NCBI GenBank assembly: GCA_903911205.1
Contig: CAIWCL010000294.1
Location: forward strand, 1-36,933
Reading direction: 5' to 3'
Source: an uncultured bacterium
Lineage (GTDB): Bacteria; Planctomycetota; Phycisphaerae; Phycisphaerales; SM1A02
DNA length: 36,933 nt
Part shown: positions 12,258 through 34,242 of the stretch, piece by piece
How positions within the stretch are numbered: the first letter of the stretch is position 1
Layout: each line of letters starts with the position of its first letter
Position numbers and translations under genes: made by a program
Notes under the pieces: model-generated
What the model saw: the letters and a program-made list of their open reading frames with translations, nothing else
What the model was told of the DNA's origin: nothing
The model's database searches: none

Positions 12258-13451
12258 ATGCGCACGAATCGTCTTCCGAAGTTCATTCAGGTCGCCGCCC
12301 ACACCGTACTTGCTTCGACGGCACTCGCTGTGGCTGGAGCGGCATCTGCGCAAAGCGCGGACGCAGATCTCCCCGCGACGACCAGCACCCCGAAGGTCTA
12401 CGTCTTCCCGCTCGTCGGGCAGATGGGAACGGATATCTCGGAGTCGAGCTTCGAAGTCCTGTCGAAGGATCTTGAGAAGGCGAAGCCCGACATCATCGTC
12501 TTCCGACTGAAGAGCGCGGACATTGACCGCAACGACTACTTGAAGAACGACGATCCAAATGAGTTCGGCTTGCCGGGCGAAGTGGGTTCGTATCGCCAGA
12601 TGTTGAAGGACATCCGCGACAAGTTCCGCGATACGCCCCAAGTCGTTTGGGTGGAAGACGCCGTCGGCGTTTCGAGCCTCTACGCGCTCGGTTGGCCACG
12701 CATGTACATGGTGTCTGACGCTCGGCTCTACGGCCTCAACCGATTCAAGGAGATGGTTGAGAGTCAGTGGGAAGACGCCGACGTTCGCTCGAAAATGGTT
12801 GCCGCGTGGACGGGCATCATGAAGGGCCTCGTCGAAGTCGGTGGTTACCCACGCGAAGTTGCCGACGCCTTGATTTTCCCCGAGACGAAGCTCTCGGTGA
12901 ACTTCGAAGGGCGCAACGCGAAGTGGCTTGGTGACACGACAGGCATGTGGGTCGTGGATTCAAGCGACCAAGCCGCGTGCGCGTTCAATGCGCAACTCGC
13001 AGAAGATGCGATGTTGTCTGACGGCACCGCCGACAGCCTCGATGACCTCATGTTCCTGCTCGGTTACCGCGAGTTCGAGAAACTCGACTCCGGTGAGAAG
13101 GTCGGCGCCCAGTACATCAAGGACTGGCGCAAGGCCATGGACGAGTGCACCAAGAACATGGAAGACGCGCAAGAGACCGAGGACAGTGTCGCTGGTCTCG
13201 GGAAGCGCAAGGGTTACTACGAGAAGACCATCGCACTCATGAAGCGTTACCCGGCGATTGAGAAGCGTCGCGAGATGCAACAGCGCGGCGTGTCGATCAT
13301 TGCGCTTGAAGGCGCGGTGGACGACATCAAGAAGGAAATTCAGCGCCAACGCGAAGCGGAGAAGCAGGGCCGTCAAGGTGGCGGCGGCGGCGGTGGTGGC
13401 GGAGGTGGGCGTGGTCTCGGTGGCGGTGGTATGAGCCGTCCGGGCGGTTGA
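12258..13451 (+). CDS. Secreted ClpP/NfeD-like protein with degenerate active site
   Basis: A 397-residue exported protein. The N-terminus is a signal peptide (basic start, hydrophobic core at about 12-29, cleavage near AASA-Q). The rest aligns by eye with the next gene: KPDIIVFRLKS against the strand before the oxyanion loop, and VVWVEDAVGVSSLYAL against the segment holding the Ser nucleophile. The oxyanion NSGGG of the paralogue is replaced by KSADI (85-89) and the nucleophile position is Gly137, so peptidase activity is unlikely. The C-terminal third is charged and helical, ending in a tract of more than ten glycines. ATG at 12258 is chosen because it begins the signal peptide; the frame is open further upstream. 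It is probably co-transcribed with the active paralogue. Confidence 0.72.
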   Translation: MRTNRLPKFIQVAAHTVLASTALAVAGAASAQSADADLPATTSTPKVYVFPLVGQMGTDISESSFEVLSKDLEKAKPDIIVFRLKSADIDRNDYLKNDDPNEFGLPGEVGSYRQMLKDIRDKFRDTPQVVWVEDAVGVSSLYALGWPRMYMVSDARLYGLNRFKEMVESQWEDADVRSKMVAAWTGIMKGLVEVGGYPREVADALIFPETKLSVNFEGRNAKWLGDTTGMWVVDSSDQAACAFNAQLAEDAMLSDGTADSLDDLMFLLGYREFEKLDSGEKVGAQYIKDWRKAMDECTKNMEDAQETEDSVAGLGKRKGYYEKTIALMKRYPAIEKRREMQQRGVSIIALEGAVDDIKKEIQRQREAEKQGRQGGGGGGGGGGGRGLGGGGMSRPGG

Positions 13452-13556
13452 TCCGCTGCGCGAATGACGTGCGCATGGCCCTTGAAGTGTTGTGATTGCC
13501 TCAGACTTTCTCTCGACGCACGCGACGTGGCGGCGAGTCATCCGGACGAAAAACAC

Positions 13557-14933
13557 ATGAACCAATTCATGCACTCACTGAAGAACTCGAAATCAACCCT
13601 CGCGACCGTTGCGCTCTCGCTCGCCGTGCTCGCGGGTGGTGCGACGATGGCCGTCGCAGCCGACGTCAAGCTCGCGAATGGCTCGACCTGGAAGGGTGAT
13701 GCCGGCGCCCGCGTGCGTGTGACCTACACGCTCAACGGCAAGGAACTCACGCTCGAAGGTTTGGTCGTGAAAGCGGACAAGAGCTTCTTGCAGGTCGAAG
13801 TGGACGAAAATGGCAAGAAGGTCAAGAAGACGATCACCTCGTTCGACTTGAAGAAGGTGGAGACGCTTGCTGCGGATGGAGGCACTTCGACGAAGGCTCC
13901 AGCGGGCTCAAGTGGAACAACGACGCCAGGAAAGTCGAATACATCCGCTGGTTCCGCGTCCACAGCAACCACCTCCGGCGCTCCCGCCTCAGGCAAGCAA
14001 ACGATTTTCATTCTTCCGTGGGGCCGTGGCCCCGGCGGCGACGTCGACATGGTCGGCCTCGGTGCGCGTCACGAGGAGATTGAGAAGATCGGGGCAGAAG
14101 CCGACAAGATCGGCCCGGGCCAGATCATCGTCCTCGAAGTCAATTCGGGCGGTGGCTTGGTGCTCGAAGGCGACAAGATCGACGAAACGCTCAATAAGCT
14201 CCGTGAGCGTCACCGCGTCATCGCGTGGATCCACGAGGCGATTTCTGCCGCGGCGTTCACGTCGCTTCACTGCAATGAAATCTACTTCCAGCGCGTCGGC
14301 ACACTCGGCGCGATCACGATGTTTGCAGGTACGAAGTCCATCGAAGGACGCGAACTTGAAGCGTGGCTCAAGAAGGTTGGCGATGTCTGTGAGGCCACGA
14401 GCCGCAACCGTTGGATCGGTGAGGCGATGGTGACCAACGAGCCTGAACTCTCCTACGACAAGGACGAGGAAGGCAATGTCACGTGGTACAACACGTTGCA
14501 GGGAAAGTACGACCTTTCCGACAAGGTGCAGAACCTCACGATCAACGCGCAGCAGGCTGAGCACTCGAAGTTCTCGCAGGGCACCGCCGACACTGTGCCG
14601 GATCTGCTGAAGCTCCTGAATCTCTCGCCCGACAAGGTCGAGATTTCGCAAGCGGGCTACAAAATCCACAACGACTGGCAGGCGACGATGAAGCAGTGCA
14701 AAGAAGCGAAAATAAAGCTTCTTCGCGACATGCAAAACCCGCCGGGTCTGACCCAGCTCGATCAACTCAACGCGCGGCTCCGCGCAGCGAAGGAAATTCG
14801 CAAGTGGTTCGACAAGTGCTTCCCGATCATGACGTACGACCAACCCGCGGCCGGTAGCCCGGAGCAGTGGGATGGAATCATCGAAGACCTCAGTCGCCAG
14901 ATCAAGCAGGCGAAAGACCGTCGCAACGGTTGA
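13557..14933 (+). CDS. Secreted serine protease-like protein, ClpP/NfeD (SDH) fold
   Basis: A 458-residue exported protein. A signal peptide (hydrophobic core at about 15-32, AVAA) is followed by a small beta-rich domain (36-105), a Thr/Ser/Gly/Ala linker (108-147), and a crotonase-fold domain. In that domain IVLEVNSGGG (191-200) forms the oxyanion loop and AWIHEAISAAAFTSL gives the putative nucleophile Ser230, as in membrane-bound ClpP-class (NfeD/SppA-like) peptidases; VGTLGAIT follows as expected. A helical C-terminal region of about 130 residues is unassigned. Unlike NfeD it has no membrane helices or OB domain at the C-terminus. The gene follows its degenerate paralogue by about 105 bp and is closed by a strong terminator. 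The fold is well supported; substrate and activity are inferred. Confidence 0.78.
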   Translation: MNQFMHSLKNSKSTLATVALSLAVLAGGATMAVAADVKLANGSTWKGDAGARVRVTYTLNGKELTLEGLVVKADKSFLQVEVDENGKKVKKTITSFDLKKVETLAADGGTSTKAPAGSSGTTTPGKSNTSAGSASTATTSGAPASGKQTIFILPWGRGPGGDVDMVGLGARHEEIEKIGAEADKIGPGQIIVLEVNSGGGLVLEGDKIDETLNKLRERHRVIAWIHEAISAAAFTSLHCNEIYFQRVGTLGAITMFAGTKSIEGRELEAWLKKVGDVCEATSRNRWIGEAMVTNEPELSYDKDEEGNVTWYNTLQGKYDLSDKVQNLTINAQQAEHSKFSQGTADTVPDLLKLLNLSPDKVEISQAGYKIHNDWQATMKQCKEAKIKLLRDMQNPPGLTQLDQLNARLRAAKEIRKWFDKCFPIMTYDQPAAGSPEQWDGIIEDLSRQIKQAKDRRNG

Positions 14934-14958
14934 CGCGTTCGACATCTCAGTTCAACGA

Positions 14959-14993
14959 CACCGACCCCGTCGCGCACGGGGTCGGTGATTTTT
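14959..14993 (+). terminator. Strong intrinsic terminator
   Basis: A perfect 12-bp stem CACCGACCCCGT (14959-14970) pairs with ACGGGGTCGGTG (14976-14987) around a five-nt loop, followed by ATTTTT. It lies 26 nt after the protease-like gene and separates that pair from the genes downstream. Confidence 0.93.
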
Positions 14994-15106
14994 GAGGCAA
15001 ACTTCCTTGGACACCTTTGACGGCTCCGCCTGTGGTTTTCGACTGCTGGAATTGTTGAACTTCGAACACGACTTGCGAAACACCGTGATCCTGCGATCCT
15101 TCGCGC

Positions 15107-15796
15107 ATGAACGAAGGAAAGCCTGATTCCAAGCTGTCGCAAGAGCCATCGGTCGCGCCCGCAGCGGATCCATTCGCGCCGTATTCCGAGGCATCCCGTG
15201 CGGAAGATCTTGCAGAGCGTCGCGGTCGTTGGCGTGTTGTGTTTCCGGTGATCTCCGTGGCGATCGGTGTCTTCGGAATGTGCTTTCAGGGGTTGTTCGC
15301 CGTGCAAATCGTGTTTTGGGACACGATCATGGCAAGCGCAGGCATGGTGCTCACGCCGCCGCCTGACATCATCAAGTGGACAACGACCGCACAGGTTGCA
15401 ATCACGATTCCACTGGGAATCGTGCTGATCGCGGGCAGTGCGATGCTGCTCTTGCGTAAACCGCTTGGTGCGAAACTCGTGATGTTTTGGGCGGTGGCTC
15501 GGCTCGTCCTTGTCGTTGCAGGCCTCGTGGCAGCCGTGGTCACCATCAAGCCGCAAGTCGAGTGGGGAGTGACCCTCGCTTCAGAGATGCGCGATGAAAT
15601 GCGCAAGAAGGGCGTGAAGGAAGAAGACTTGCCGCCGCTCCCCGATGAGGCGAAGGCGCAATCGGACGGCCTTCGCAACATGGCGATCGTCTCCATTGCG
15701 ACCGCCACGTGGCCATTCGTGATGGCGATTGTGTTGACGCGGCGTCACGTGCGCGCGGAAGTCGCGTCGTGGAAGCAGCCGACGAATGCAGCGTGA
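15107..15796 (+). CDS. Small multi-pass membrane protein of unknown function
   Basis: A 229-residue protein. A polar N-terminus of about 42 residues is followed by four likely membrane helices (about 44-72, 90-113, 121-146 and 193-211). A charged amphipathic segment lies between helices three and four (EMRDEMRKKGVKEEDLPPLP). No family is recognised. It lies downstream of the terminator and converges on the ABC-2 permease gene 43 bp away. The start at 15107 gives a normal length; no strong ribosome-binding site is visible. Confidence 0.7.
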   Translation: MNEGKPDSKLSQEPSVAPAADPFAPYSEASRAEDLAERRGRWRVVFPVISVAIGVFGMCFQGLFAVQIVFWDTIMASAGMVLTPPPDIIKWTTTAQVAITIPLGIVLIAGSAMLLLRKPLGAKLVMFWAVARLVLVVAGLVAAVVTIKPQVEWGVTLASEMRDEMRKKGVKEEDLPPLPDEAKAQSDGLRNMAIVSIATATWPFVMAIVLTRRHVRAEVASWKQPTNAA

Positions 15797-15839
15797 ACCT
15801 CGCGTCACTCGCGCGTGATTTGTCGCAAGCAGGCTCGTT

Positions 15840-16877
15840 TCATCCAACTTCGCGGCGCTGGAAGAGCGCAGTCGCGACAGCAAGGAGACCGGTGACCAGG
15901 GCCAGCGTGTAGAGCATCGCGTAGCCGAAGTAATCGGCCGGGATCGCTTTCTTCTGCGTCAGCGCGTCTGCAAGCCAGAACAACTGGAAGTTGGGCACAG
16001 ACGCGCGGCACAGCGACAAAAACGCCCACTTTGCGTGCATCGTGAGCGGAACCTCGCCGCCAGCCTTGGCAACTTCCGCCATCGCGGCCGTCGTTTCGGA
16101 GAGCGGGCGACCGAACATCCAGTCGGAGAGCAACCCCAGCACGAACATTCCCACCACGATGGTGAGGGTGAGTACTTGCCCAAGCCTTGTGCTCGCGGCG
16201 ATGGCGATCGCGTTGAGGACCAACGTCGCGAGTGCAATGAGAAACAGCGCCTTCCAAACTTCAGGTTCAAACTGCTGCCCGATGGGAATCGACTTAAATT
16301 CGGCATCGAAGAACAGCGAGAGCAGGTAGGCGAGGCCCAAGAATGGCACGGAGAGCGTGAGGGTCCACGCGGCGAAACTCCGACCATAGAAGTAATTCAT
16401 CCAAGCGCCGACGGCGACCGCGGCAATCATCGCTCCCAAACCAAAGAGGATGACCGGGAGGTGGAAGGGATCACGCGCGGTTTGCAGGGTTCCGTGCACC
16501 TCAACCAGTGAGAAGACAAGTCCAAGGTAGAGAAGCGCCACGAGCATCGACGCTGACACGCCGAGGAACTTTCCGAGGATGAAGACGGGGCGGGGCACCG
16601 GCTTCGACACCACGGTCAGGACGGTGCGATTTTCGATTTCGCGGGCGAGAACGTTGGTTGCGAGGAACGATGCCAACACTGCGGTCGCGAGAAAGACCGT
16701 CGAAAGCCCGATGTCGAGGAACATGCGTTGGTCTTCCTGCATGGTCCAGGCGCTGAACGGGTTGGAAAGGACGACGAAGATCGTCGCCGCCACGCAGACC
16801 ACAAGGACGACCGGTTGACGGATCGACTCAAGGAAGGTGTTGCGGAGGATCGCGAGGAGCTGCTCGACGAAGGACAT
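15840..16877 (-). CDS. ABC-2 type transporter permease
   Basis: Integral membrane protein of 345 residues with about six or seven helices. It starts with the ABC-2/NatB-like NTFLESIRQPVVL segment and has the typical cytoplasmic loop EIENRTVLTVVSKPVPRPVFILGKFLG before the third helix. The same loop appears in the permease at 23590 (EIRDRQAWLTLTKPVSRFSFLLGKWLG), so the two are paralogues and may share the single ATPase at 22253. No ATPase adjoins this gene on its own strand. It is divergent from the SPFH operon across a 409-bp region. Identity as a permease is firm; substrate is unknown. Confidence 0.87.
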   Translation of the reverse strand: MSFVEQLLAILRNTFLESIRQPVVLVVCVAATIFVVLSNPFSAWTMQEDQRMFLDIGLSTVFLATAVLASFLATNVLAREIENRTVLTVVSKPVPRPVFILGKFLGVSASMLVALLYLGLVFSLVEVHGTLQTARDPFHLPVILFGLGAMIAAVAVGAWMNYFYGRSFAAWTLTLSVPFLGLAYLLSLFFDAEFKSIPIGQQFEPEVWKALFLIALATLVLNAIAIAASTRLGQVLTLTIVVGMFVLGLLSDWMFGRPLSETTAAMAEVAKAGGEVPLTMHAKWAFLSLCRASVPNFQLFWLADALTQKKAIPADYFGYAMLYTLALVTGLLAVATALFQRREVG

Positions 16878-16955
16878 AGTTTCTCGACAGGCTTACGGTG
16901 GGGTTCGGCGAAACAGGATTCGGAACCAAAAAGTCGGAATTACAAGACGAATTCT

Positions 16956-16997
16956 ACGAAGCGAGAGCCACGAAGCGAGAGCCACGAAGCGAGAGCT
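16956..16997. repeat. 14-bp tandem repeat, three units
   Basis: ACGAAGCGAGAGCC occurs at 16956-16969 and 16970-16983, with ACGAAGCGAGAGCT at 16984-16997. It lies about 80 bp upstream of the minus-strand permease start. Confidence 0.88.
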
Positions 16998-17120
16998 GCG
17001 TGGCAGGTCACCAACGCGCACAGAAGCAGGCAGGTTCGCGTCGTTGCGAGCGGCCGCGAGAGCAAAGTGTCCGAACCCGTGGTCGTTCGTCCTCTTCCAC
17101 GAAGGACAAGCGAACACAAG

Positions 17121-17135
17121 CGCAGTTGAACTGCG
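17121..17135. promoter_or_regulatory. Perfect palindrome, possible operator
   Basis: CGCAGTT-G-AACTGCG is a 15-bp inverted repeat with a single central base, followed at once by GTACCTTACAGTAC. In a divergent regulatory region such symmetry suggests a dimeric repressor site. No regulator gene is nearby. Confidence 0.3.
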
Positions 17136-17286
17136 TACCTTACAGTACCGCCCCGTCTCCGTCGCGGCTCTGGCATCGGGCTTCGTCTCGACCTTTGCTT
17201 CGGCGGACGGGTTCATCTCGCCACTCGGCAAGCCCAGCAGCGGTCTGGGTTGGCGCCGGGACTTTCTTGTCTCCCACAGACCAACG

Positions 17287-19476
17287 ATGCGCATCGATCA
17301 CCACGCGTACCAGCGGGCAACGGGCGTCGCCGCCAGCGGACTTCTCGCACAAGTCGCGATTGCACTCCTGCTCCTGATCTTCGGTAAGACCACAAGCGAC
17401 TCCACGCTCGTCGTGGCGTCCGCCTGGGCCTTCTGCGGGGCGATCCCGTGGCTTGGGCTCACGATGATCTTCTACCAGCACCGTCTGGAGCGGCTCGAGA
17501 GTCTCGAACTCGACGCAGGCGCACGGGTCGACTCGGAAGGACGCATTTTCAACACCGATGAGGCGCGCGTTGCACGCAAGCGACTTGGCCTCATGCACTC
17601 GGTGCTGATGCCCATCTTGAGCGTGCTGTACGCGGTACTCCTCGTGGCGATCGGGTGGTCGATTCTTTGGTGGTTCGAGAAGGAGGGTGATCCAAACGCG
17701 GATTGGGGCACCTTCGGCACGGGCTCTGCGCTCGGTTGGCAACTCGCGGTGACGTTCGGAACGGCGCTGCTTGCCTTCATCTTCTCGCGATTCGTCGCTG
17801 GTATGGCAGTCCAAAGCGCGTGGACGAACCTGCGCGGCGGTGCGGCGGTCATGGTCGGCAACGCGCTTGTGGCGTTGGCGGTCGGAATCGGCACCGTTGT
17901 TGAACTCCTCAAAGAGGAAGGTCAATCGGACACCGTCATGCGCGGTATCGCGCAAGGGATCGCGATCTTTATGTTCGCGGTCGCGGCGGAGACGCTCCTC
18001 AACTTCGTGCTCAATCTCTACCGCCCGCGCCGCATGGGCGAGACGCCGCGACCCGCGTTTGATTCGCGCGTGTTGAGCTTGCTCGCCGCGCCTGATTCGA
18101 TCGTGCGCTCGATCAACGAAGCGGTGAACTATCAGTTCGGCTTCGACATCACGAGTTCGTGGGGCTACCAGCTGCTCTTGCGCAATTTCGCGCGGCTTCT
18201 GGCTGTGGGGCTCGTGGTTGTACTCGCGCTGACCACGCTCGTGGTCGTTCAGCCGCAGGAGCAGGGCATGCGTTTGCGCTTCGGAGCGCGCGTTGGTGAG
18301 GTCTATCAAGGCGGCGCGATGGCAAAGTTGCCGTGGCCGATTGATACGGCGATCGTCGAAGATGTCAATCTCGTGCGTGACTTATCGCTCGGGATGGTGC
18401 GTCCGTTCTCAAGTGGTGATGTCATCACGTGGGGCGACGACACGATGCAACTCACGCAGCAGACGAATGTCTTCCTCGTCGGCCTCGGCGCCGCGGAGCC
18501 GACTGCAGCGCCGGTGCTTCCCGGTGCCGTTCCGAGCATTGCACCCACGACGTCGTTTGGTGTTGCTCCTGCGACGGCTGCGGCGGATCGCAGCGCGGCG
18601 ACCGAGCAATTCGCCGTGGTCGAAGCGGACATCGTTCTCCAGTACCGCGTGCGAGACCGCGAACTCGACAAGTACATCGCGTTCTCGAACGACATCAAGA
18701 GTCGTCGCTCGGCGATGGATATGCGCGAGCGTGCACTGAAGGCCATGGCGTTGCGTGAAGTCACGCGCACGATGAGCAGTCGCACACTCGACACAGTCCT
18801 TTCACCTCCACCAGACGCACCGCTTGTCGACACGCTCGTCAAAGCGATTCAAGGCGCGTTTGACGCGGCGGAGACCGGGGTTGAAGTCGTGGGTCTTTCC
18901 ATTCCGCGGCTCCGTCCGCCCGGCACCGAGGGCGGCAAGTTCGAAGAGCTCTCCATCGCGCGGCAGAATGGTCGTCGTCAAGTGGAGGACGCGCAAAGCG
19001 CCGTCAACACGACGATGAGCATGCTCGTTGGCGATGTCGCGCTTGCGGACGAAGTCTGGAAGGGCATCGCAGAACTCACGAAACTCGAGAACGAGGCGAA
19101 GGCTGGCTCCGCCGATGCGCGGCAAAAAGCTGACGCGCTGCGTGCGCGCCTTGAGCAGATTGTGCTTGATTCGCGTGCGCAGTCGGCGAGCGTTATCTCG
19201 AACGCCCGTGCGCTCCGATGGAACCTCCTCATGGACGCGCAAGCGATTGCCGCAGAAGTCACCGGTCAGGCACCGGCGTGGAACGCCGACCCGTCGCTGT
19301 ATCGAACACGACGCACGATGGACGCGCTCGCCGAAGCGCTCTCCGGCGTGCGTGCGAAGTACATGCTGCTCCCAGATCCCTCGCGCGTCCGGATCGACGT
19401 CGAGATGCAGGAAACAAGTACCGGGCTCAACCTTGGGGACTATCTCGAGAAGAAGTCAGGTGATGGTGGCGGATAA
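17287..19476 (+). CDS. SPFH/band-7 protein with N-terminal seven-helix membrane domain
   Basis: A membrane scaffold protein of 729 residues when started at ATG 17287. About seven helices are visible (near 14-32, 43-63, 105-130, 150-172, 185-205, 222-243 and 302-322). Directly after the last comes the HflK-like start of an SPFH domain, VQPQEQGMRLRFGARVGEVY, followed by the LPWPIDTA motif. The SPFH domain and its helical extension (EDAQSAVNTTMSM, QKADALRARLEQ) run to the C-terminus, with a Pro/Ala-rich insertion at about 400-440. Usual HflK proteins have a single helix, so the seven-helix fusion is unusual. It is the first of three consecutive SPFH genes. The exact start is uncertain because the frame is open upstream. 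Confidence 0.82.
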   Translation: MRIDHHAYQRATGVAASGLLAQVAIALLLLIFGKTTSDSTLVVASAWAFCGAIPWLGLTMIFYQHRLERLESLELDAGARVDSEGRIFNTDEARVARKRLGLMHSVLMPILSVLYAVLLVAIGWSILWWFEKEGDPNADWGTFGTGSALGWQLAVTFGTALLAFIFSRFVAGMAVQSAWTNLRGGAAVMVGNALVALAVGIGTVVELLKEEGQSDTVMRGIAQGIAIFMFAVAAETLLNFVLNLYRPRRMGETPRPAFDSRVLSLLAAPDSIVRSINEAVNYQFGFDITSSWGYQLLLRNFARLLAVGLVVVLALTTLVVVQPQEQGMRLRFGARVGEVYQGGAMAKLPWPIDTAIVEDVNLVRDLSLGMVRPFSSGDVITWGDDTMQLTQQTNVFLVGLGAAEPTAAPVLPGAVPSIAPTTSFGVAPATAAADRSAATEQFAVVEADIVLQYRVRDRELDKYIAFSNDIKSRRSAMDMRERALKAMALREVTRTMSSRTLDTVLSPPPDAPLVDTLVKAIQGAFDAAETGVEVVGLSIPRLRPPGTEGGKFEELSIARQNGRRQVEDAQSAVNTTMSMLVGDVALADEVWKGIAELTKLENEAKAGSADARQKADALRARLEQIVLDSRAQSASVISNARALRWNLLMDAQAIAAEVTGQAPAWNADPSLYRTRRTMDALAEALSGVRAKYMLLPDPSRVRIDVEMQETSTGLNLGDYLEKKSGDGGG

Positions 19477-19479
19477 GGG

Positions 19480-19535
19480 CGGTGCATGAGGCCCGGTGCA
19501 TGAAGCCCGGTGCATGAAGCCCGGTGCATGAAGCC
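19480..19535. repeat. 14-bp tandem repeat after the first SPFH stop codon
   Basis: Four units: CGGTGCATGAGGCC once and CGGTGCATGAAGCC three times, then a partial fifth (CGGTGC). It begins three bases after the TAA at 19474-19476, and each unit carries ATGA. Confidence 0.92.
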
Positions 19536-19642
19536 CGGTGCGCCCGCGCGTTGTGCCCGGCTCACGACATCGCCAGGAATCAGGTGAGAACTCACGAATC
19601 GAAGAACCGCGGCATGCGCCGCGATTGACAGGAACGACAGAC

Positions 19643-20680
19643 ATGAACAAGCGAACCTCTGCCATCGCACTCGGACTTGCCATCGTGGCCGTGCTTGTCC
19701 TCTACAGCACGACCTACACCGTCAACTTCCATGAGATCGCGATCCGCACGCGTTTCGGTGAAGCCTCCGGTGTCGAACGCAATCCCGGCCTCCATTTCAA
19801 GTGGCCGTTCTTCATCGACAACGTCACGAAGATTGATCGTCGGAAGCAACTCGCGGAAAGTCCGCTTGTGCAAACGGCAACTGCGGACGGCTTGCAAGTG
19901 GTCGTTCAGGCGTATCTCTTCTGGCAAGTGAAGGACACCGACGCCGACGCACAGTCGTTTCTCAAGAGTTACCCATCGGTTGATGAGGCCTCGAAGGATC
20001 TTGAACAAGCGCTCGCGGGCGCAGTAAAGGCGGTTGCGGGTTTCCGCTTTGATGAGTTGGTCGGCCCCAATGCACGGCTTGCCGACGCGGAGAAGGCGAT
20101 TCTCGCGGGTGTTTCCGCCGCGACCAAGACGGGTATTGAGCCGGTCTCCGTCGGACTCGCGCAGGTGGTTCTGCCGCAGAAAACCACGGTGAGCGTTCTC
20201 TCGCGCATGTCGGAAGTGCAGAACACGCTTGCACGACTTGAGAGTGCGAAGGCCGCGTCGCAAGCGGAGGCGCTCAAGAGCCAAGCGAACAGCCAAGCCG
20301 ACACGATTCGCGCGTTCGCTGCACAGTGGGCCGCGCGCATCGAAGCGAAGGGCAATGAGGAGGCATCGGTGTACTACGAGCGCATGAAAGATCACGCGGA
20401 ACTCGCGACGTTCCTCGCCTGGATCGATGCGATGAAGGCAGGTCTGCGCGGCTCCACGACATTCGTTGGTGATACCACCACTGCGCCGTTCCACCTGCTT
20501 GATCTCGGCTCGCCGATCGACGCAAGCGGAATTCCCCAGCCACGTCGTACCTCCTCGCGCGCGGAGAAGCCGGCATCCATCGGCGCTGCCGCGGCCACAA
20601 ACGGTGCCCCTGAGACGGCGAATTCGTCCACGATGAACGGTGTTGGTACCGCAGCGTCGGCGGAGGAAGCGGGCCAATGA
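19643..20680 (+). CDS. SPFH/band-7 protein, HflC-like
   Basis: A 345-residue single-pass membrane protein. The N-terminal helix is at 6-21, followed by the SPFH domain: NFHEIAIRTRFGEASG, then NPGLHFKWPFFIDNVTKIDRR, which is the classical HflC/prohibitin opening. A long helical region rich in Ala, Glu and Gln (about 190-260) and a low-complexity Ala/Ser/Thr tail follow. HflC-type proteins oligomerise with HflK-type partners into cage-like membrane assemblies, and the next gene is the likely partner. ATG at 19643 is chosen over an upstream in-frame ATG because it begins the membrane helix and has CAGGA upstream. The stop overlaps the next ATG as ATGA, indicating coupled translation. Confidence 0.88.
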   Translation: MNKRTSAIALGLAIVAVLVLYSTTYTVNFHEIAIRTRFGEASGVERNPGLHFKWPFFIDNVTKIDRRKQLAESPLVQTATADGLQVVVQAYLFWQVKDTDADAQSFLKSYPSVDEASKDLEQALAGAVKAVAGFRFDELVGPNARLADAEKAILAGVSAATKTGIEPVSVGLAQVVLPQKTTVSVLSRMSEVQNTLARLESAKAASQAEALKSQANSQADTIRAFAAQWAARIEAKGNEEASVYYERMKDHAELATFLAWIDAMKAGLRGSTTFVGDTTTAPFHLLDLGSPIDASGIPQPRRTSSRAEKPASIGAAAATNGAPETANSSTMNGVGTAASAEEAGQ

Positions 20681-22125
20681 GCACCGAGTCGAACAACCCT
20701 TTCGATCCGAGTGACGCCGAGAGGTTGGAGGGCGCGCCCGAGCAGCCACGTCGCGCAGCAAGCGCACGCTTCGACATTGCGGCGCGCGAAGACGCGGGGA
20801 TGCGCGATGCGCTGGATCCCGCGACCCAATCGCTCGGCGAAGCACTCAAGCTTTCGTATCGCATTCTGCAGGTTGGCATTCTTGCGCTGGTTGTCATGTT
20901 CCTCTTCTCAGGCTTTCAGTCGGTGAAAGAGGGCGACACAGGCGTGAAGACGCTCTTCGGAGCGATCGCCGGCGCTGAGGGTGAAGAGCAGTTGCAGCCG
21001 GGTTTTCAGCCCTTTTGGCCGTATCCGGTTGGCGACCTGGTCGTCTTCGAACAGAAGCGCACGCTTCGTCTCGATACGCAGTTCTGGCCAGCACGTCAGG
21101 TGCAGGGCGACACGAAGCAGAAGTCGACCGATGAGCAGATCGATAGCGCCGATGCGTCTGCGGGGCTTCGCCCAGGAAGTGACGGCTACATTCTGACCCG
21201 CGACGGTGACATCGCGCATGCACAGATTGAAGCCGAGTACCAAGTCGCCGACGCGGTTCGCTTCCTGCAGACGACGAGTCCGCAGGAAGCAGATCGCCTG
21301 GTGATGAGCGTTCTGGAACAGGCAACCGTCGAGGCCGCGAGCACGCTTGCGCTTTCGGAACTCACCGAGACGCGTGACCTGCTTGGTCCCGTCGTTCGCG
21401 AGCGTGCACAGCGCGCGCTCGATCGGCTCGATGCAGGCATCGACCTTGCGTCGGTGCGCGCCGTGGAGCGAAGTGCACCATTTGCCGTGCAGAACCGCTT
21501 GCGTGAAGTGCAGACGAGCCGTGAGGCCGCGAAGAGTGAAGTGGAACGCGCGCGTCAAGAAGCGGGTGCGACACTCACTTCGATCGCCGGCGGTGAGGTC
21601 TACACCGAACTACTCAAGCTGATTCGCGAGTATGAAGAGGAACTCGGCGCTGGGCGAAGTGCGGAAGCGGAAGCGACGCTCGTGCAACTTGGTGCGCGAC
21701 TTGAAGCGCCGGATGTGGGTGGCGAAGTTTCGCGCACGATTCAGCGCGCAAAGGCCGCGGAAACCGCCTTGCGCGCGCGCCTTGAACGCGAGGTTGAACG
21801 GCTCGACAGTCTCGCGGGGGCGTATCGCGATTCGAGTTCGCAGGTTGTTGCGCAGCTTTGGCTCGACGCGGTTCGTGAGATCTATGAGAACCCGCAAGCG
21901 GAGATCTACGCCGCACCAAATGTCCTTGGCGGACTCAATCTTCGCTTGACGAGTTCGAGCGAAGTTATGCAAGCGCGACGCGATGCGGAAACGCAACGGA
22001 AGAAGGCAGAGCAGGCGTTCAAAGACGCAGGCGGCTTCTATGCGCCGAACAGCGAGCAAATCTACATCGGCAAACCGGGACGCCGTTTGAAGCGTGATGC
22101 AAGTGGCGGCGTGGGCCGTCCGTGA
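20677..22125 (+). CDS. SPFH/band-7 protein, HflK-like
   Basis: A 482-residue single-pass membrane protein. A polar N-terminus of about 60 residues precedes one helix (about 64-82) and the SPFH domain with SVKEGDTGVKTLFG and QPGFQPFWPYPVGDLVVFEQ, the last close to the HflK 'PGxxxxxPxPI' opening. A long coiled-coil-prone region (about 285-400, REVQTSREAAKSEVERARQE) follows. It is longer than typical HflK (about 400) because of inserts near 140-165 and a C-terminal extension. It is translationally coupled to the HflC-like gene by ATGA overlap. No FtsH gene, the classical client of HflKC, is in the window. Confidence 0.86.
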   Translation: MSTESNNPFDPSDAERLEGAPEQPRRAASARFDIAAREDAGMRDALDPATQSLGEALKLSYRILQVGILALVVMFLFSGFQSVKEGDTGVKTLFGAIAGAEGEEQLQPGFQPFWPYPVGDLVVFEQKRTLRLDTQFWPARQVQGDTKQKSTDEQIDSADASAGLRPGSDGYILTRDGDIAHAQIEAEYQVADAVRFLQTTSPQEADRLVMSVLEQATVEAASTLALSELTETRDLLGPVVRERAQRALDRLDAGIDLASVRAVERSAPFAVQNRLREVQTSREAAKSEVERARQEAGATLTSIAGGEVYTELLKLIREYEEELGAGRSAEAEATLVQLGARLEAPDVGGEVSRTIQRAKAAETALRARLEREVERLDSLAGAYRDSSSQVVAQLWLDAVREIYENPQAEIYAAPNVLGGLNLRLTSSSEVMQARRDAETQRKKAEQAFKDAGGFYAPNSEQIYIGKPGRRLKRDASGGVGRP

Positions 22126-22188
22126 CAGGAACGTCACGCGAATTCGGACGGATGCGCGGCGCGCCTCGCGCAGTACGTCGGAAACACA

Positions 22189-22232
22189 GTGTGAGAACGG
22201 CAGTCGGATGAACGGCAGCTGGGCGACCGGCA
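22189..22232. repeat. Degenerate 14-15-bp repeat before the ABC ATPase gene
   Basis: Three diverged units ending in CGGCA: GTGTGAGAACGGCA, GTCGGATGAACGGCA and GCTGGGCGACCGGCA. It lies in the 127-bp gap after the HflK-like gene. Confidence 0.55.
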
Positions 22233-22252
22233 CTTGAAGCCGCGAGGAAACC

Positions 22253-23593
22253 ATGGCAACGGCAGGACGCGATTCAACACGTGGCATCACGCAACCGGGA
22301 ACCACGCAACCGACGAGCGCCGCAAGCCCCTCCGCATCCTTTGCGAAAGGTGAGCGGATCGTGGAGGCGGCGGGCCTGACGAAAACGTTCAGTGATTTCT
22401 GGATGCGGGCGACGGCGCGCGCGGTCGATGGCATCGATTTTCATATCGATCGTCATGAAATCTTCGGGCTTCTTGGTCCGAACGGATCCGGCAAGTCGAC
22501 CACGATCAAGATGATCCTCGGCCTGTTGCACAAGACGCACGGACGGCTTGTCGTCTTTGGTCGTGATCCGTCCGATGTTGCCGTGAAGCGAAAGATCGGC
22601 TACCTCCCGGAGGAGACGTATCTCTATCGCTTCTTGAATCCAACAGAAACGCTCGATTACTACGGCAAACTCTTTGGTCTTGATCGCCGCACGCGCAAGC
22701 GTCGAACGGGCGAACTGCTTGAGATGGTTGGGTTGACGCAGGTTGCCCATCGCGCCGCTGGCGAGTTCTCGAAAGGTATGGCTCGTCGACTCGGTCTTGC
22801 GCAAGCACTCGTGAACGACCCAGAGCTGTTGATCCTCGACGAGCCGACATCGGGCCTCGACCCGATCGGGACGAAACAAGTCAAGGATCTCATTCTCGAA
22901 CTCGGTCGCCGTGGAAAGACGATCTTGCTGACGTCGCACCTCCTGGCCGATGTTGAGGATGTTTGTGATCGGATGGTGATTCTGTACGGCGGCAAGATTC
23001 GCGCTGCCGGAACGGCGAACGAGTTACTTGCCGATAGTCGGCACACGCTCATTCGCGCACCGCGCCTCGATGAGGCGACGATTCGCGCCATCGACGAAAC
23101 GTTGCACCGTGTGCAGGGCGTTGGTATCGAGCGCGTCGAAGCGCCTCGACAAACGCTGGAGAATCTCTTCCTCGATATTGTCGAGCGCGCTCGTCAGGAG
23201 CAACTCGCGACGAGCGGCGCCCAGTCGGGTGGTCGAATCGCGTCGTTCCTTCAGGGCGACGAGACGCGGGGCGGAACCGACGCCGCGGATGGCGGTGGAC
23301 GACACGTGGTCGATGCACTTGTCCAGTCGACCGACGCGCCCGCTCGCGCGACTCTGGCGCAGCCTACAGCTCCCGAATCGCCCAAGGGCGTCGATGCGTC
23401 GGTGTTGGATGCGCTTGTTTCCGGCGAGAAAGCCAAGCAAGGCGGTCCGGCAACGCCCACGTCGCCCGCGAAGAAGTCCGACGCACCTCAGGTGCGCAAG
23501 GCTGCGGATGTCGATCAGGGCTTGATTGACTCGCTGCTTTCGGATGATGTGAAAAACGGTGCTGAGCGGAAGGGTCCGGAGGGTGGCGCGTGA
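22253..23593 (+). CDS. ABC-2 type transporter ATPase with long C-terminal tail
   Basis: Cytoplasmic ATPase of 446 residues. Walker A GPNGSGKST (75-83), a signature in the NatA-like form FSKGMARRLG (172-181), Walker B LLILDEP with TSGLDP (about 193-204), and switch His in TSHLL (229). The ATPase domain ends near 315. The remaining 130 residues are low-complexity with four short hydrophobic motifs: RIASFLQ (328), HVVDALVQS (351), ASVLDALVS (382) and GLIDSLLSDD (424), spaced like docking sites. ATG at 22253 has GAGGAAA a few bases upstream. The stop overlaps the permease GTG, so the pair forms one transporter. The transported substrate is not evident; the SPFH genes upstream suggest a membrane-organising role. 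Confidence 0.92.
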   Translation: MATAGRDSTRGITQPGTTQPTSAASPSASFAKGERIVEAAGLTKTFSDFWMRATARAVDGIDFHIDRHEIFGLLGPNGSGKSTTIKMILGLLHKTHGRLVVFGRDPSDVAVKRKIGYLPEETYLYRFLNPTETLDYYGKLFGLDRRTRKRRTGELLEMVGLTQVAHRAAGEFSKGMARRLGLAQALVNDPELLILDEPTSGLDPIGTKQVKDLILELGRRGKTILLTSHLLADVEDVCDRMVILYGGKIRAAGTANELLADSRHTLIRAPRLDEATIRAIDETLHRVQGVGIERVEAPRQTLENLFLDIVERARQEQLATSGAQSGGRIASFLQGDETRGGTDAADGGGRHVVDALVQSTDAPARATLAQPTAPESPKGVDASVLDALVSGEKAKQGGPATPTSPAKKSDAPQVRKAADVDQGLIDSLLSDDVKNGAERKGPEGGA

Positions 23594-25704
23594 GCGGCGC
23601 AGACGGAAGAACATCGATGGGAACGTCGATTGGAACACCGATGGGAGTCAGCGTGATTTCGCGATTCCAGCAGAAACTCGCTGAGCTTTCGATGCGTCGA
23701 AGTGTGCGTATCGCGGTTGCGTCGATCTACGCGATCGTCATTCTCGCGTTGGCATTCGTCGCCTATCGCGAAGCGGCGTACATCGATCGATTCGCCGAAG
23801 AAGTTCCTGAACTCTTGAAGGGTGCCAACCTCGTCGCGAAGGATGCTGCGGCGATTGAACTCGCGGAGAAGGGCACCGTGACCTTCGAAGGTCGTACCGT
23901 TGGCGACGCGGCGCTCGCAACGCAGATGGCTGGCCTGTATGGCGTTGCTGGAAACCTCGAACGTTACGCCGAAGCAACATCCATCCTCATCGGAACAATG
24001 CGCCCCGACTGGCTTCCCGTTCCGTTTGCGGAAGATCCATGGCTCGTTCTCGCGACGGCAGCGTTGCTCTTGACCATCGTCTGCTTCGCGGTGTTTTCAG
24101 GCCTCGCGGTGGCACTTGTCGGTGTCACGCTCGCGGCGCTCGCTGTCGCGATTCCCGTCACGCTGATAGGTCGACCGAGCCTCGCGACGAGCCTCTCTGC
24201 CATCCCCGTTGGGCTTCTCACGTTTGCGCTCGTGGTGCGCCTCGCGCAGTTACTTCTGGATCGCGCTTCACCCGTCTTTGCGATCGCGTCTGGGGTGCTT
24301 CGAGAGGCGATGCGACTTCGTATCGCGGTTGCATTCGCGGCTGTCGCGGTTGTTGCCATTCCGCTCTTTCCGCAATGGATCGATCCAACGACGCCGTTGC
24401 GCTATCAGGTGCAGACGTTCCTTTCGCGCTCCATGGACACGATGTACGTCGTCTGCGCATTCCTGACGGTCTTTCTCGGTTGCGCAACGGTTGCGTTTGA
24501 GATTCGCGATCGCCAAGCATGGCTCACGCTCACGAAACCAGTGTCACGCTTCTCATTTCTTCTCGGGAAGTGGCTTGGACTTGTCACGCTGAACGCGTGC
24601 ATCTTGATCGTCGCCACGATCGCGATGTTCGCGTTCTTGGTCCAGGTTCGTGCGCGGCCGGCGCAAGACATCTTCGACGCCCTCGCAGTGCGCGACGAAG
24701 TGCTTGTCGCCCGCGTTGGTTCGCTGCCCATCTACGAGCCTCTTCCCCCAGAAGAACTCAAGTCGGCAGTCGAGGAACGGATGCGGGCGGACCTCAACGC
24801 GCAGGCAGATCTTCGAGCGGGTACCCGCACGGAGATTGAGATCAAAAAGCAGTTCGCGCGAGACATTGCCGGCGACTATCTCAAGCAACTTCGCTCCGTT
24901 CCTCCGGGAGGAGAGCGCGTCTATCGCTTCCCAAATCTTGGCGCCGCGCGCGATGCAGAGGGAAATCTCTCCCTTCGGTACAAGCTCTATTCTGGCGAGA
25001 GTGATCCGCACGCGACCTACCCCGTGATCTTTGTCTTCGGTGAAGGAGATCGCCAAACATGGGCGGATCGGCAGATTGTTGCCGCACAAGTGAACGCGCT
25101 ACCCGTTCCCGCGAGCACCATCGCGGATGACGGATCGCTTGTTGTTCGCATCGTCAATGCGCAGGTCAATCCGAATCCGCAGCCAGGCGCACCAGAGTTT
25201 TTGCCTGGTCGCACATCGCTTGCCTTCGATCTTGATGGACTCGAACTCTTGCATCGCGTTGGTGGCTTCGAGGCGAACCTCTTGCGCGCCCAGTGCGTGA
25301 ATCTGCTGAAACTCTCTTTCCTTGGCATGCTCGCGGTTTCGCTCGCCTCATTCCTCTCGTTCCCTGTCGCGTGTTTGGTCGTGTTCACGATCTTCGCGGC
25401 TGGTTCGATCGCGCCCTATCTTGCGACGAGTGTGGATGAGTATCGCATTCGAACCGAGTCACAGGCATGGAAAGCGTTTGAAGCGGTCATCAAGGGTATT
25501 GCGGGTGCAACGGAGTTCAGTGTGCGGAGTTTCGGTGAAGCTCGCGCAAACGGCGCGCTTGTTGAGGGACGCTTGGTTTCGACAGGGCTCGTTCTGCGAA
25601 CTTTTGCCTTGATCGGCGTTGCCTGGTCCGCCGTGGTGCTCCTCCTCAGTCTTGCGGTGTTCCGCCGCAAGGAAATCGCGATTTACAGCGGGCAGGGAGG
25701 CTGA
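23590..25704 (+). CDS. ABC-2 type permease with large soluble insert
   Basis: Membrane protein of 704 residues, far longer than a standard ABC-2 permease (250-400). One helix is near 41-60, a soluble segment follows to about 145, then helices at about 147-225, 240-262 and 280-305. The ABC-2 loop EIRDRQAWLTLTKPVSRFSFLLGKWLG precedes a further helix. A domain of roughly 220 residues (about 355-575) is hydrophilic and probably extracytoplasmic; three C-terminal helices end the protein. GTG at 23590 overlaps the ATPase stop as GTGA. The N-terminus (TSMGTSIGTPMG) comes from a 12-bp repeat. Its signature loop matches the divergent permease at 15840, so the two may form a heterodimer. Substrate unknown. 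Confidence 0.85.
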   Translation: MSGADGRTSMGTSIGTPMGVSVISRFQQKLAELSMRRSVRIAVASIYAIVILALAFVAYREAAYIDRFAEEVPELLKGANLVAKDAAAIELAEKGTVTFEGRTVGDAALATQMAGLYGVAGNLERYAEATSILIGTMRPDWLPVPFAEDPWLVLATAALLLTIVCFAVFSGLAVALVGVTLAALAVAIPVTLIGRPSLATSLSAIPVGLLTFALVVRLAQLLLDRASPVFAIASGVLREAMRLRIAVAFAAVAVVAIPLFPQWIDPTTPLRYQVQTFLSRSMDTMYVVCAFLTVFLGCATVAFEIRDRQAWLTLTKPVSRFSFLLGKWLGLVTLNACILIVATIAMFAFLVQVRARPAQDIFDALAVRDEVLVARVGSLPIYEPLPPEELKSAVEERMRADLNAQADLRAGTRTEIEIKKQFARDIAGDYLKQLRSVPPGGERVYRFPNLGAARDAEGNLSLRYKLYSGESDPHATYPVIFVFGEGDRQTWADRQIVAAQVNALPVPASTIADDGSLVVRIVNAQVNPNPQPGAPEFLPGRTSLAFDLDGLELLHRVGGFEANLLRAQCVNLLKLSFLGMLAVSLASFLSFPVACLVVFTIFAAGSIAPYLATSVDEYRIRTESQAWKAFEAVIKGIAGATEFSVRSFGEARANGALVEGRLVSTGLVLRTFALIGVAWSAVVLLLSLAVFRRKEIAIYSGQGG
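23614..23649 (+). repeat. 12-bp tandem repeat in the permease 5' end
   Basis: Three units: TCGATGGGAACG, TCGATTGGAACA and CCGATGGGAGTC. They encode the Gly/Thr/Ser/Met-rich start of the permease and preserve frame. Confidence 0.75.
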
Positions 25705-25705
25705 C

Positions 25706-27667
25706 ATGGGCGACCGCGTGATTCAATTCGGCTCAATCCTCGCGCTTGGCGGCGCGATTGCTGGCGCGGCGTTGACACAGCCAAAGCTCGTCGACGTCGC
25801 AGATCGCGAAGAACTTCGCTACACCGATGTTTCGATTGATGGAGCTCCGCCGATTGTGGCCATTGGTACGGCGATTGGTGCGCTTCGCGGGCTCATCGTC
25901 GACTACTTGTGGATCAAGGTCACGCTGCAGAAGGAAAAGGGTTTGTTGTACGAGGTCATGGCCGACGCGGACCTCATCACGAAACTGCAGCCACGCTTTC
26001 CGGATGTGTGGGCGTTTCATGGTCACAACATGGCCTACAACATTTCGGTGATGACCAACACGCAGGACGAACGTTGGGCGTGGGTCAACGCGGGCATCAA
26101 CCTCGTTCGCAACAAGGGCATTCGGTACAACCCAAACGATCTCATTCTCGGCAAAGAACTGTCGTTTTGGTTTTCCCACAAACTTGACGGTGTCGCCGAC
26201 GACGCGCATCTCTTCTACAAGAGAAAGTTCGCTGAAGAGTGGACGTACATCCTCGGTCCAGCGCCGTACGACTACGACCAACGACTTGCGTGGATGAAAT
26301 CCATCGCGGACGCCCCCGATACTCTCGAAGTGCTCGAGCAGAAGGTGCCGGGAACAACGGAGTTCATCGCCAATCTTTCTCAGCGACTCAAGCCGCTTGG
26401 TGCGCGCTACGAATTCGCGGTCGACAAGCGATTCCTCGACCTCTACGGTCAGTGGCTCGCGCGCAAGAACTCGCCATACGCGAAGGCGCTCAATATCCGC
26501 GCTTCGAGCGAGGGCGCGGCCGCGCTCGTCGGCATCTTTGATTCGACGTTCGGCGACGAGAAGAACCGCGAAGTTGCAGACAAGCTTGTTGCGTTCCTTC
26601 GCAAGCGCGTTTTGCTCGACTCATACAATATGGATCCGCAGCTGATGTATGAGTTCACGCGCGATACGGGACCGCTTGATTGGCGGCACCCCGCGGCGCA
26701 CGCGCTCTATTGGGCGCGGCGCGGCATGCTGTTTGGTGAAGATCGCATGTTGCGCGATGAGTTAGAAGCATTCAAAGTCATCAATAACGACCGCCAAGAA
26801 ATCCAGGCGATGCAGGCGCTCGCGCGTTCGGGACTCGTGAGTTACGACCCGTTCAGCGGCGACAATGTCACGCGGCTCAACGATCCGCGCTGGATCCTCG
26901 TACTGGATCGGTACTTCGAAAAGCTCTACGAAAAGCACTACGAAACGCGCGGTGCAGGTGCGGACACCTTTACGAACCTGCACGAGAACTTCATGCGTCA
27001 GGCGGTGCGCGAGTTGTATCGCCTCGGCGATATCGAAGGCGCTCAGAAGATTCTGACACGACTCGACACGCTGTACGGCACCGGTAGCTTCAATCCGAAC
27101 ACCCAGTATCAGAAGCCGCTCGAAGATTTTGTGCGTGATCAGCTCTACGGCGAGTTTGAGATGCAGCCGGAAGTTGTGCGCAGCGATGTGTATGCCGCGC
27201 TGGAGCGTGGCTTCCGCGAAGGACTTCTTCTCGACAACGAGAAACTCCTTGAGGACAGTCTGAAGTATGCGCGTGATCTGACGCGCTACTTCCGCGAAAC
27301 ACGTTTCAACGACTTCGTGAACAAGTTCGGCGAAGGCCGAATGAAGGATGTCCTCGGAACGCTCGAAGACTCTATTCCAGCGGTCTTCACGAAGATCATG
27401 CTCGATACATCGCAGCCCATGCTGGATCGACTTGTGATCTATCGCAAGGCTCCGGACGATTTGAAGCTCGCGATCTACGATCGCGTGAAGCCGACGCTTG
27501 AACGCGAATATGCCGTTGCGCGTCTGTCGCAAACAGGCATGCCGTTCGCTCAAGCGTTCCCCGAGCCGCCTGGGCTTGCCGAGTACCGGAAGGAGCAGGA
27601 AGCAGCGGCACGCGCGCGTGAAGAGGCGAAGAAGTCGGACAACACGAGCGAGGCGCAGCGGAAATAG
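25706..27667 (+). CDS. Membrane-anchored helical protein of unknown function
   Basis: A 653-residue protein I cannot assign to a characterised family. One N-terminal helix (about 6-24) probably anchors it, and a second hydrophobic stretch (IVAIGTAIGALRGLIVDYLW) lies near 50-70. It then has a conserved-looking aromatic segment, ITKLQPRFPDVWAFHGHNMA, and long helical stretches suggestive of TPR-like repeats. The C-terminus is Glu/Lys/Ala-rich. The start follows the permease stop by one base and has a strong GGGAGG, which rules out the longer upstream frame. Tight coupling to the ABC genes suggests it works with the transporter, for example as an assembly or substrate-binding partner; that is inference. 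Confidence 0.8.
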   Translation: MGDRVIQFGSILALGGAIAGAALTQPKLVDVADREELRYTDVSIDGAPPIVAIGTAIGALRGLIVDYLWIKVTLQKEKGLLYEVMADADLITKLQPRFPDVWAFHGHNMAYNISVMTNTQDERWAWVNAGINLVRNKGIRYNPNDLILGKELSFWFSHKLDGVADDAHLFYKRKFAEEWTYILGPAPYDYDQRLAWMKSIADAPDTLEVLEQKVPGTTEFIANLSQRLKPLGARYEFAVDKRFLDLYGQWLARKNSPYAKALNIRASSEGAAALVGIFDSTFGDEKNREVADKLVAFLRKRVLLDSYNMDPQLMYEFTRDTGPLDWRHPAAHALYWARRGMLFGEDRMLRDELEAFKVINNDRQEIQAMQALARSGLVSYDPFSGDNVTRLNDPRWILVLDRYFEKLYEKHYETRGAGADTFTNLHENFMRQAVRELYRLGDIEGAQKILTRLDTLYGTGSFNPNTQYQKPLEDFVRDQLYGEFEMQPEVVRSDVYAALERGFREGLLLDNEKLLEDSLKYARDLTRYFRETRFNDFVNKFGEGRMKDVLGTLEDSIPAVFTKIMLDTSQPMLDRLVIYRKAPDDLKLAIYDRVKPTLEREYAVARLSQTGMPFAQAFPEPPGLAEYRKEQEAAARAREEAKKSDNTSEAQRK

Positions 27668-32458: not shown

Positions 32459-32592
32459 GTGTCAAAACGATGGAAACCGCCATGAGGCGCTTTGCCGCTG
32501 TGAAGGTGGTGTTAGGTTGGGATGCACCGAATCGTCGGTTCGCGTTGTCGCATTGCTGCGACGCTCGAGCCGACATGTTGGAGGATCTCCGC

Positions 32593-34083: not shown

Positions 34084-34183
34084 GTATCGCGGTTGCGTGT
34101 GGGACTCTCATATGGAACGGGGCACGAGACCAGCGTTCTCGGGCTTGACGGACTTCGTTGGGTGTCTTTGTCCGACATCAACG

Positions 34184-34211: not shown

Positions 34212-34242
34212 CCGTCCGCTTGAGGGTGGCGGAGGAGGCGAT

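Follow-up and report, generated by a model that had tools for sequence, protein, structure and literature searches.

The question raised by the stretch of DNA analysed here, 36,933 nucleotides from contig C294 of a planctomycete draft genome (3.87 Mb, 96.9% complete) and hereafter called the window, is what three consecutive SPFH proteins do beside the genes of an ABC-2 exporter. Two ClpP-like proteins are encoded upstream, and a first-pass annotation of the window had proposed that the SPFH proteins organise the exporter in the membrane, with an active and an inactive protease controlling it. According to the analyses described below, the case for a cage with transporters is stronger than was stated there, and the protease part is wrong. 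The reading that we prefer, at a probability of roughly 0.45, is that the SPFH trio would assemble into a cage of the HflK/C class that surrounds transporters and is anchored by a domain derived from a transporter. The genes of the conserved block are the following (coordinates in the window).

15840–16877, minus strand: perm345, divergent ABC-2 permease (ABC2_membrane_2, 33.6 bits, cut-off 27.2), a conserved neighbour of S1.
17287–19476, plus strand: S1, HflK-like SPFH protein with an N-terminal six-helix membrane domain, predicted to be of the CDF type, at residues ~5–250.
S1, remainder: a further transmembrane (TM) helix, the SPFH domain at residues ~318–545, and then C-terminal helices.
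19643–20680, plus strand: S2, HflC-like SPFH protein with one N-terminal TM helix; Band_7.
20677–22125, plus strand: S3, HflK-like SPFH protein with one TM helix; Band_7.
22253–23593, plus strand: ABC ATPase of the ABC-2 exporter, DrrA/GldA/NosF/ABCA-like (ABC_tran, 103.6 bits, cut-off 25).
23590–25704, plus strand: large ABC-2 type permease, with ~10 hydrophobic segments by hydropathy and a large soluble insert.
25706–27667, plus strand: TAIL, N-terminally anchored, all-helical protein with a TPR-like solenoid and a basic C-terminal end; no known family.

The open reading frames (ORFs), coordinates and gene order of the first-pass annotation are correct, including the plus-strand run of six genes (S1, S2, S3, ABC ATPase, large permease and TAIL). 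The overlaps that it had claimed are also present, ATGA at 20677–20680 between S2 and S3 and GTGA at 23590–23593 between the ATPase and the permease; the permease stop and the TAIL start are one base apart. For S1, the ATG at 17287 is a likelier start than the upstream GTG at 16837, because the relatives align from 17287.

Is the neighbourhood of trio and exporter conserved? Two sets of loci were compared. The named set consists of the top 80 relatives, out of at least 591, in a contig scan; they are labelled as planctomycetes or as uncultured bacterium, except for L125, which is labelled Limnohabitans and is probably misnamed. Sixty-one of the 80 reach S1; the other 19 begin inside the block at a contig start and hold no S1. 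S2, S3, the ATPase, the permease and TAIL accompany S1 in this order in 61/61 loci, and perm345 lies beside S1 in 58, the remaining three being cut at that end. This linkage of trio and ABC genes is far beyond chance, though many of the 61 loci are close relatives. The second set comprises 63 S1-containing loci from the genomes of relatives (18 from the window's own family, 45 from others). Besides the named loci, 60 stretches around TAIL, 20 around S1 or its TAIL and 20 around other SPFH groups were collected, and all of these were searched with profiles built on the proteins of the window; the S1 of G200 was left out of the fetched loci. The trio is complete in 60 of the 63 loci and the ABC ATPase lies downstream of S1 in 55, counts that are not those of a random sample because L063–L122 were picked for TAIL and L203–L222 for S1. 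Of the eight loci with no downstream ATPase, four (L210, L214, L217 and L222) end less than 5 kb from S1, L220 has the permease, and three (L212, L213 and L219) have no ATPase within 11–12 kb. S2 and S3 are both missing at L219, and S3 is missing at L212 and at L214, the latter at a contig end. Thus, trio and exporter form one conserved neighbourhood, as had been claimed, and it is a fair inference from this conservation that the SPFH proteins work with the exporter.

The two modules also occur apart. TAIL was found in 59/61 relatives. Across 149 genomes of the phylum, a profile search recovered it in 104, and long S1 matches (E 1.1e-54 or better) were found in 32. The ATPase, permease and TAIL stand with no trio nearby at L099, L109, L111 and L115–L121, and in the one-contig genome G163 S1 and TAIL are 850 kb apart. 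As TAIL is present in more genomes than S1 and trio-free ABC loci exist, the ABC module has the wider distribution of the two, the trio being added to it in Phycisphaerae and in several further groups. The trio-free module looks like an old planctomycete exporter. At L118–L122 the recognised part of TAIL is N-terminal only. The converse arrangement, a trio without these ABC genes, was named in the first-pass annotation as a pattern that would speak against the linkage if it prevailed; it does exist, at eight loci of other families that are described below together with the P-type ATPase, but it does not prevail in this class.

Scores against profiles identify the second module as an ABC-2 exporter, both the ATPase and perm345 lying above their cut-offs. 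The best PDB relatives of the ATPase include ABCA transporters and NosF, and it scores higher against the lipid-transporting ABCA than against NosF. The large permease gives weak ABC-2 and GldF matches below the cut-offs and has no PDB relative by sequence; its assignment also uses the conserved position in the block. An AlphaFold2 (AF2) model of TAIL (pLDDT 83.9) shows an N-terminal helix and then a helical solenoid. Its structural matches are TPR-like and other helical-repeat proteins with a best Z of 11.2, a value of an order that is common for repeats according to the warning of the tool. No sequence relative of TAIL was found in the PDB, where the best E was 0.035, for designed proteins. 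The C-terminus of TAIL reads [EQ]R[KR] in 58 of 129 relatives, and its last residue is K or R in at least 90 of the 129. In the large permease, the final three residues are GQG, QGG or GHG in 66/147. These C-terminal ends of TAIL and the large permease are possible docking tails.

To which class do the SPFH proteins belong? All three exceed the Band_7 cut-off of 23.6 bits (S1 27.3, S2 68.5, S3 56.2), which bears out the claim of three consecutive SPFH proteins. The class that had been supposed for them, stomatin-type partners of NfeD proteases, was rejected, as the profiles that fit best are HflK and HflC. S2 matches HflC in the PDB with an E of 1.4e-12. In comparison with the NCBI equivalog profiles, S1 (54.0 bits) and S3 (47.7 bits) are below the cut-off of TIGR01933 hflK (159.4), and S2 (71.6 bits) is below that of TIGR01932 hflC (134.4). 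Thus, we call the proteins HflK/C-like and do not file them as HflK or HflC.

The leader S1 differs from the other two by its membrane domain. The AF2 model of S1, made with 37 sequences, has a mean pLDDT of 78.9 and a pTM of 0.50, with poor stretches between 374 and 436, and shows six helices, a seventh TM helix, the SPFH domain and long helices. Foldseek matched the SPFH part to HflK (E 2.5e-10), followed by hits to CDF zinc/manganese transporters (E 0.009 upwards). In the VIA-align search, CDF chains occupy ranks 1 to 15 with Z of 18.4 to 13.7, where values up to ~13 can arise by chance for helical bundles; the top match, YiiP, fits model residues 5–250 with a Z of 18.4 over 200 residues at 3.1 Å. 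Profiles were also compared with each other, a test that does not depend on the model. A profile of 109 S1 N-termini (score above 380, de-duplicated by an identical 70-residue slice) was aligned with profiles of CDF proteins from the relatives, first 9 and then 30. The results were a probability of 90.3 and an E of 1.5e-6 for the 9, and a probability of 95.5 and an E of 1.3e-8 over 208 columns for the 30, these E-values being those of a single-pair comparison and not of a database search. With reversed S1 as a control, E was 0.05 and 0.18; for five further membrane families, it was 0.06–0.33 against S1 and 0.02–0.68 against the CDFs. According to the predicted structure and the profile comparison, the N-terminal domain of S1 has the six-TM CDF fold.

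In other planctomycete families the trios (L230–L238) start with single-ORF leaders in which an exporter is fused to HflK. At L230–L232 and L234–L238 an SO_0444-type Cu/Zn exporter is joined in frame to an HflK-like SPFH domain. NF033936 (SO_0444) is above its cut-off of 300 in seven of the nine leaders scanned, and these seven also show Pfam ArsP_1 and Band_7; the leader of L234, cut at a contig end, reaches 268 bits. At L233 the leader (3974–5779, minus strand) is a CDF domain fused to HflK. Its CDF part scores 120 bits against TIGR01297 (cut-off 82) and 115 bits against PF01545 (cut-off 26.6), its HflK part scores 186 bits (cut-off 159), and HxxxD is kept in both TM2 and TM5. As these sister trios have exporters fused to HflK, the most straightforward interpretation would be that exporters are housed in the cage. 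Among the publications listed by a literature search, in which most subscription journals lie outside the coverage, none dealt with SPFH–CDF or SPFH–SO_0444 fusions, and none with the combination of an SPFH trio and a P-type ATPase. In the main text of a 2009 survey of prokaryotic SPFH proteins (PMC2636767), a word search found neither ABC nor ATPase.

Another transporter, a P-type ATPase of the P1B family, recurs beside the trio. In 31 of the 63 second-set loci its gene has its start no more than 8 kb from that of S1, namely in 31/45 of the other families and 0/18 of the own family. In many families (as at L107, L108 and L112) the gene stands between those of S3 and the ABC ATPase, in others upstream beside perm345. 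Four representatives scored 507–565 bits against TIGR01525 (heavy-metal translocating, cut-off 346), all four above the cut-off. The trio with this ATPase and none of these ABC genes is found at L224–L228, L239, L241 and L242, loci that span the five families f32, f33, f48, f72 and f17, with 9–17 kb fetched each. The S1-like leaders of these eight loci and of L229 match S1 in their first 420 residues with an E of 5e-32. In G115 and G041 the contig breaks in or beside the P-type gene, with S1 on one side. In nine genomes of the own family (G001, G007, G013, G015, G021, G028, G030, G031 and G032) the closest P-type relative (57–59% identity with the L083 copy) shares a contig with TAIL and lies 30–39 kb upstream of it. 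The window's own genome holds a P-type gene fragment (L246), apparently cut by a contig end, with the motif CPG. In TM6, where the P1B family has a metal site with the motif CPC, 22 of the 38 locus copies that could be read have CPC and 16 have CPG, CPS, CPT, CPL or TPC, an unusual variation for this family. The CDF-type domain, the P-type ATPase and the sister trios had all gone unnoticed in the first-pass annotation.

We propose that the window holds the Phycisphaerales version of a two-module planctomycete membrane machine. The first module would be the HflK/C-class SPFH trio, whose leader S1 carries the CDF-type fold with no metal site, now most likely a membrane anchor or docking domain. 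The second module would be the ABC-2 exporter, with one NosF/ABCA-like ATPase, two unlike permeases and the N-anchored helical-repeat protein. S1, S2 and S3 would co-assemble, like HflK and HflC, into a hetero-oligomeric cage at the periplasmic side of the membrane; a cage of three components would agree with a trio in which two proteins are HflK-like and one is HflC-like. The transporter-derived domain of S1 would fix this cage to client transporters, placing transporter folds inside the enclosed patch. The P-type ATPase was probably the first client, and the ABC exporter would be a client here too. The two pumps would do the transport, the domain of S1 having become an anchor, and would release their substrate into the enclosed membrane patch or be stabilised within it. 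FtsH may still use the cage for client turnover. What the data show directly is the gene content, its conservation, the similarities of sequence and of predicted structure, and the fusions; co-assembly, enclosure, docking, substrate and the order of events are inferred.

Several results weigh against this proposal. Pfam sees no CDF (Cation_efflux) in S1, with a best E of 1.3 in one of 20 members. At the metal-ligand positions, set by the sites of YiiP, the TM5 His is kept in 3/109 S1 sequences (27/30 in the CDF set) and the TM5 Asp position is Asn in 65/109 (Asp in 30/30 of the CDF set). The TM2 Asp position is Gly in 97/109 and the His is kept in 12/109, TM2 of the CDF set itself being variable with Asp in 10/30. 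The sober reading of these residues is a degenerate CDF with its metal site lost. S1 as a working CDF transporter was rejected, as the ligands are lost. The comparison of the S1 N-terminus with the single L233 CDF domain was not significant (E 0.021), and the divergent leaders of the nine loci mentioned above match the CDFs weakly (E 0.002). With L233 as query (E 1e-55), no second CDF–HflK fusion was found in 391 other genomes; the L233 fusion needs confirmation, because it has no second copy and its draft genome has 6% contamination. No P-type gene is found close to the trio in any of the 18 own-family loci or in 14/45 others; the gene is far from TAIL in G024, G042, G046 and G051, it was found in 0/61 named loci, which extend hardly past perm345, and canonical CPC is missing in 16/38 copies. 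The ABC module occurs without the trio, as the counts for TAIL (104/149 genomes) and for long S1 matches (32/149) indicate. The loci are not independent, as the named set and the second set share genomes (L063 and L124, for example) and many loci are close kin. Finally, the neighbourhood may reflect co-regulation, and physical contact between the proteins is a proposal.

That co-regulation is all there is to explain is the core of the alternative with most in its favour, namely that the trio is the HflK/HflC set of this lineage and regulates proteolysis by FtsH, the exporters being linked as co-expressed envelope housekeeping genes. In E. coli, one study describes HflK and HflC alternating in a 24-subunit enclosure around FtsH and HflKC regulating FtsH (PMC12048511), and another links HflKC to respiration (PMC12005517). 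S2 and S3 resemble HflC and HflK, no SPFH protein besides S1–S3 was detected in the draft genome at E 0.001, and a single FtsH gene was found. However, this gene is on another contig, outside the block, and S1–S3 are all below the HflK/HflC equivalog cut-offs. In many families the trio has conserved neighbours in the P-type ATPase and the ABC genes, and co-expression leaves the exporter–HflK fusions of the sister trios unexplained. We regard this alternative as unlikely, though it is a serious contender.

In a further alternative, the trio and the P-type ATPase could serve metal export or the delivery of a metal cofactor, with the ABC module, through its NosF-like ATPase, ABC-2 permeases and helical periplasmic protein, in the same route of metal or metalloenzyme maturation. 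The CDF-type fold of S1, the P1B ATPase (TIGR01525 above cut-off in 4/4 scanned), the SO_0444 Cu/Zn exporter fusions and NosF among the nearest solved ATPases all point in this direction. The residues point the other way. The metal ligands are lost in S1 and altered in 16/38 P-type copies, and thus a metal substrate is not secure. The ABC ATPase is closer by score to lipid-transporting ABCA than to NosF, and no metal enzyme was found among the profiled block genes, the other neighbours being unprofiled. Such a route is improbable in our judgement, and somewhat more so than regulation of FtsH.

What is the place of the ClpP-like pair? It lies upstream of the block with one further membrane protein.

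12258–13451, plus strand: clpA, exported ClpP-fold paralogue, probably inactive by its motif; outside the conserved block; no Pfam match.
13464–14933, plus strand: clpB, exported ClpP/NfeD1b-fold protein, probably active by its motif; outside the conserved block; NfeD1b_N, 64.1 bits, cut-off 40.
15107–15796, plus strand: mem229, four-TM protein; a neighbour mainly in the own family, also in L086.

The two proteins had been described as paralogous secreted proteins of the ClpP/NfeD fold, and this is borne out, since clpB finds clpA in its own genome (E 4e-8, 25% identity). An NfeD1b-type protease domain is recognised by Pfam in clpB, and clpA gives no match; clpB has no PDB relative by sequence. 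An AIS motif is kept in clpB, where it is conserved across 10 aligned sequences, and clpA (9 sequences) lacks it. We would look for the catalytic serine of clpB at this motif. That one protease is active and the other inactive is plausible from this motif difference. To assess linkage, we took the S1-containing loci that extend 4 kb or more beyond the divergent permease on its upstream side. In these, clpA/clpB were upstream in 8/15 loci of the own family, 0/16 of the rest of the order and 0/8 of the rest of the phylum, so that the pair was rejected as a component of the block. Nearer home, 19/61 named loci carry clpA or clpB at the cut edge, which supports linkage there. On the same contig, the distance from clpB to TAIL, start to start, is ~795 kb in G024, 461 kb in G051 and 237 kb in G054, and clpA is beside clpB away from the block in G034, G051 and G043, among others. 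These results indicate that the pair is a separate unit lying alongside the block in part of one family, and is unlinked from the block in the relatives examined outside it, an outcome that the first-pass annotation had itself named as refuting its proposal.

Thus, control of an SPFH-organised ABC exporter by an active and an inactive ClpP-like protease, for which adjacency in the window and in 8/15 own-family loci, the 19/61 named loci and the motif difference speak, is very improbable and already largely refuted by the linkage data, with 0/16 and 0/8 loci outside the family, clpB hundreds of kilobases distant in G024, G051 and G054, and a trio outside the stomatin class, with which NfeD proteases are associated.

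Elsewhere in the window, a MacB/FtsX-type ABC pair is encoded upstream of the block at 3816–7134 on the minus strand. At 32470–35613 there are two proteins, one of them cysteine-rich, whose C-termini hold a repeated 'AADLSLVLxAWG'-like motif that we take to be dockerin-like. A tRNA-Ser (cga) is located at 36453–36541.

In comparison with known systems, the trio is like E. coli HflK/HflC–FtsH in the kind of SPFH domain, the N-terminal TM helix and the C-terminal helices. Unlike the two subunits of E. coli, there are three, two HflK-like and one HflC-like; the leader S1 has six additional membrane helices of the predicted CDF type, and the trio is encoded with transporters. S1 is like the CDF transporters YiiP, ZnT1 and SLC30A10 in its N-terminal six-helix fold and in profile similarity, but it is without the metal ligands and continues into an SPFH domain. 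The SO_0444 Cu/Zn efflux family (NF033936) provides the HflK-fused leaders of the sister trios but is absent from the window, where the N-terminus of S1 is of the CDF type. The exporter is like NosFY and GldAF in its ATPase and ABC-2 permease type; unlike these, it has two unlike permeases, one of them very large, and an anchored helical-repeat protein of no known family. A loose parallel is found in E. coli K-12 at 506000–519500 (L248, one genome), where the SPFH gene qmcA lies between ybbJ (NfeD) and fetA–fetB, with copA 3.5 kb from qmcA. There, too, the genes of an ABC exporter pair adjoin an SPFH gene, and that of a copper P-type ATPase is close by. However, QmcA is single, of the stomatin class, with an NfeD partner and no fusion, and FetA–FetB is another ABC type. 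SPFH, exporter and P-type ATPase neighbours thus occur outside planctomycetes as well.

For the phylum as a whole, the proposal extends to a bolder one, which we put forward tentatively and consider doubtful as it stands: that Planctomycetota build transporter-carrying heteromeric cages of the HflK/C class, in which the leader would bring a metal-exporter domain (CDF, SO_0444 or degenerate CDF) under the cage, and the caged clients would be the P-type ATPase, joined in Phycisphaerae and some further groups by the ABC exporter. Such a cage would be a periplasmic export chamber and not a protease cage. The genomes compared here name candidate contents of SPFH cages other than FtsH, through the in-frame exporter–HflK fusions and the P-type and ABC pumps adjacent to the trio in many families. 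As the transporter of a fusion must sit where the cage sits, the fusions make the contents of the cage directly testable. The recurring ties between cage and metal pump in related genomes suggest what some widespread cages may contain.

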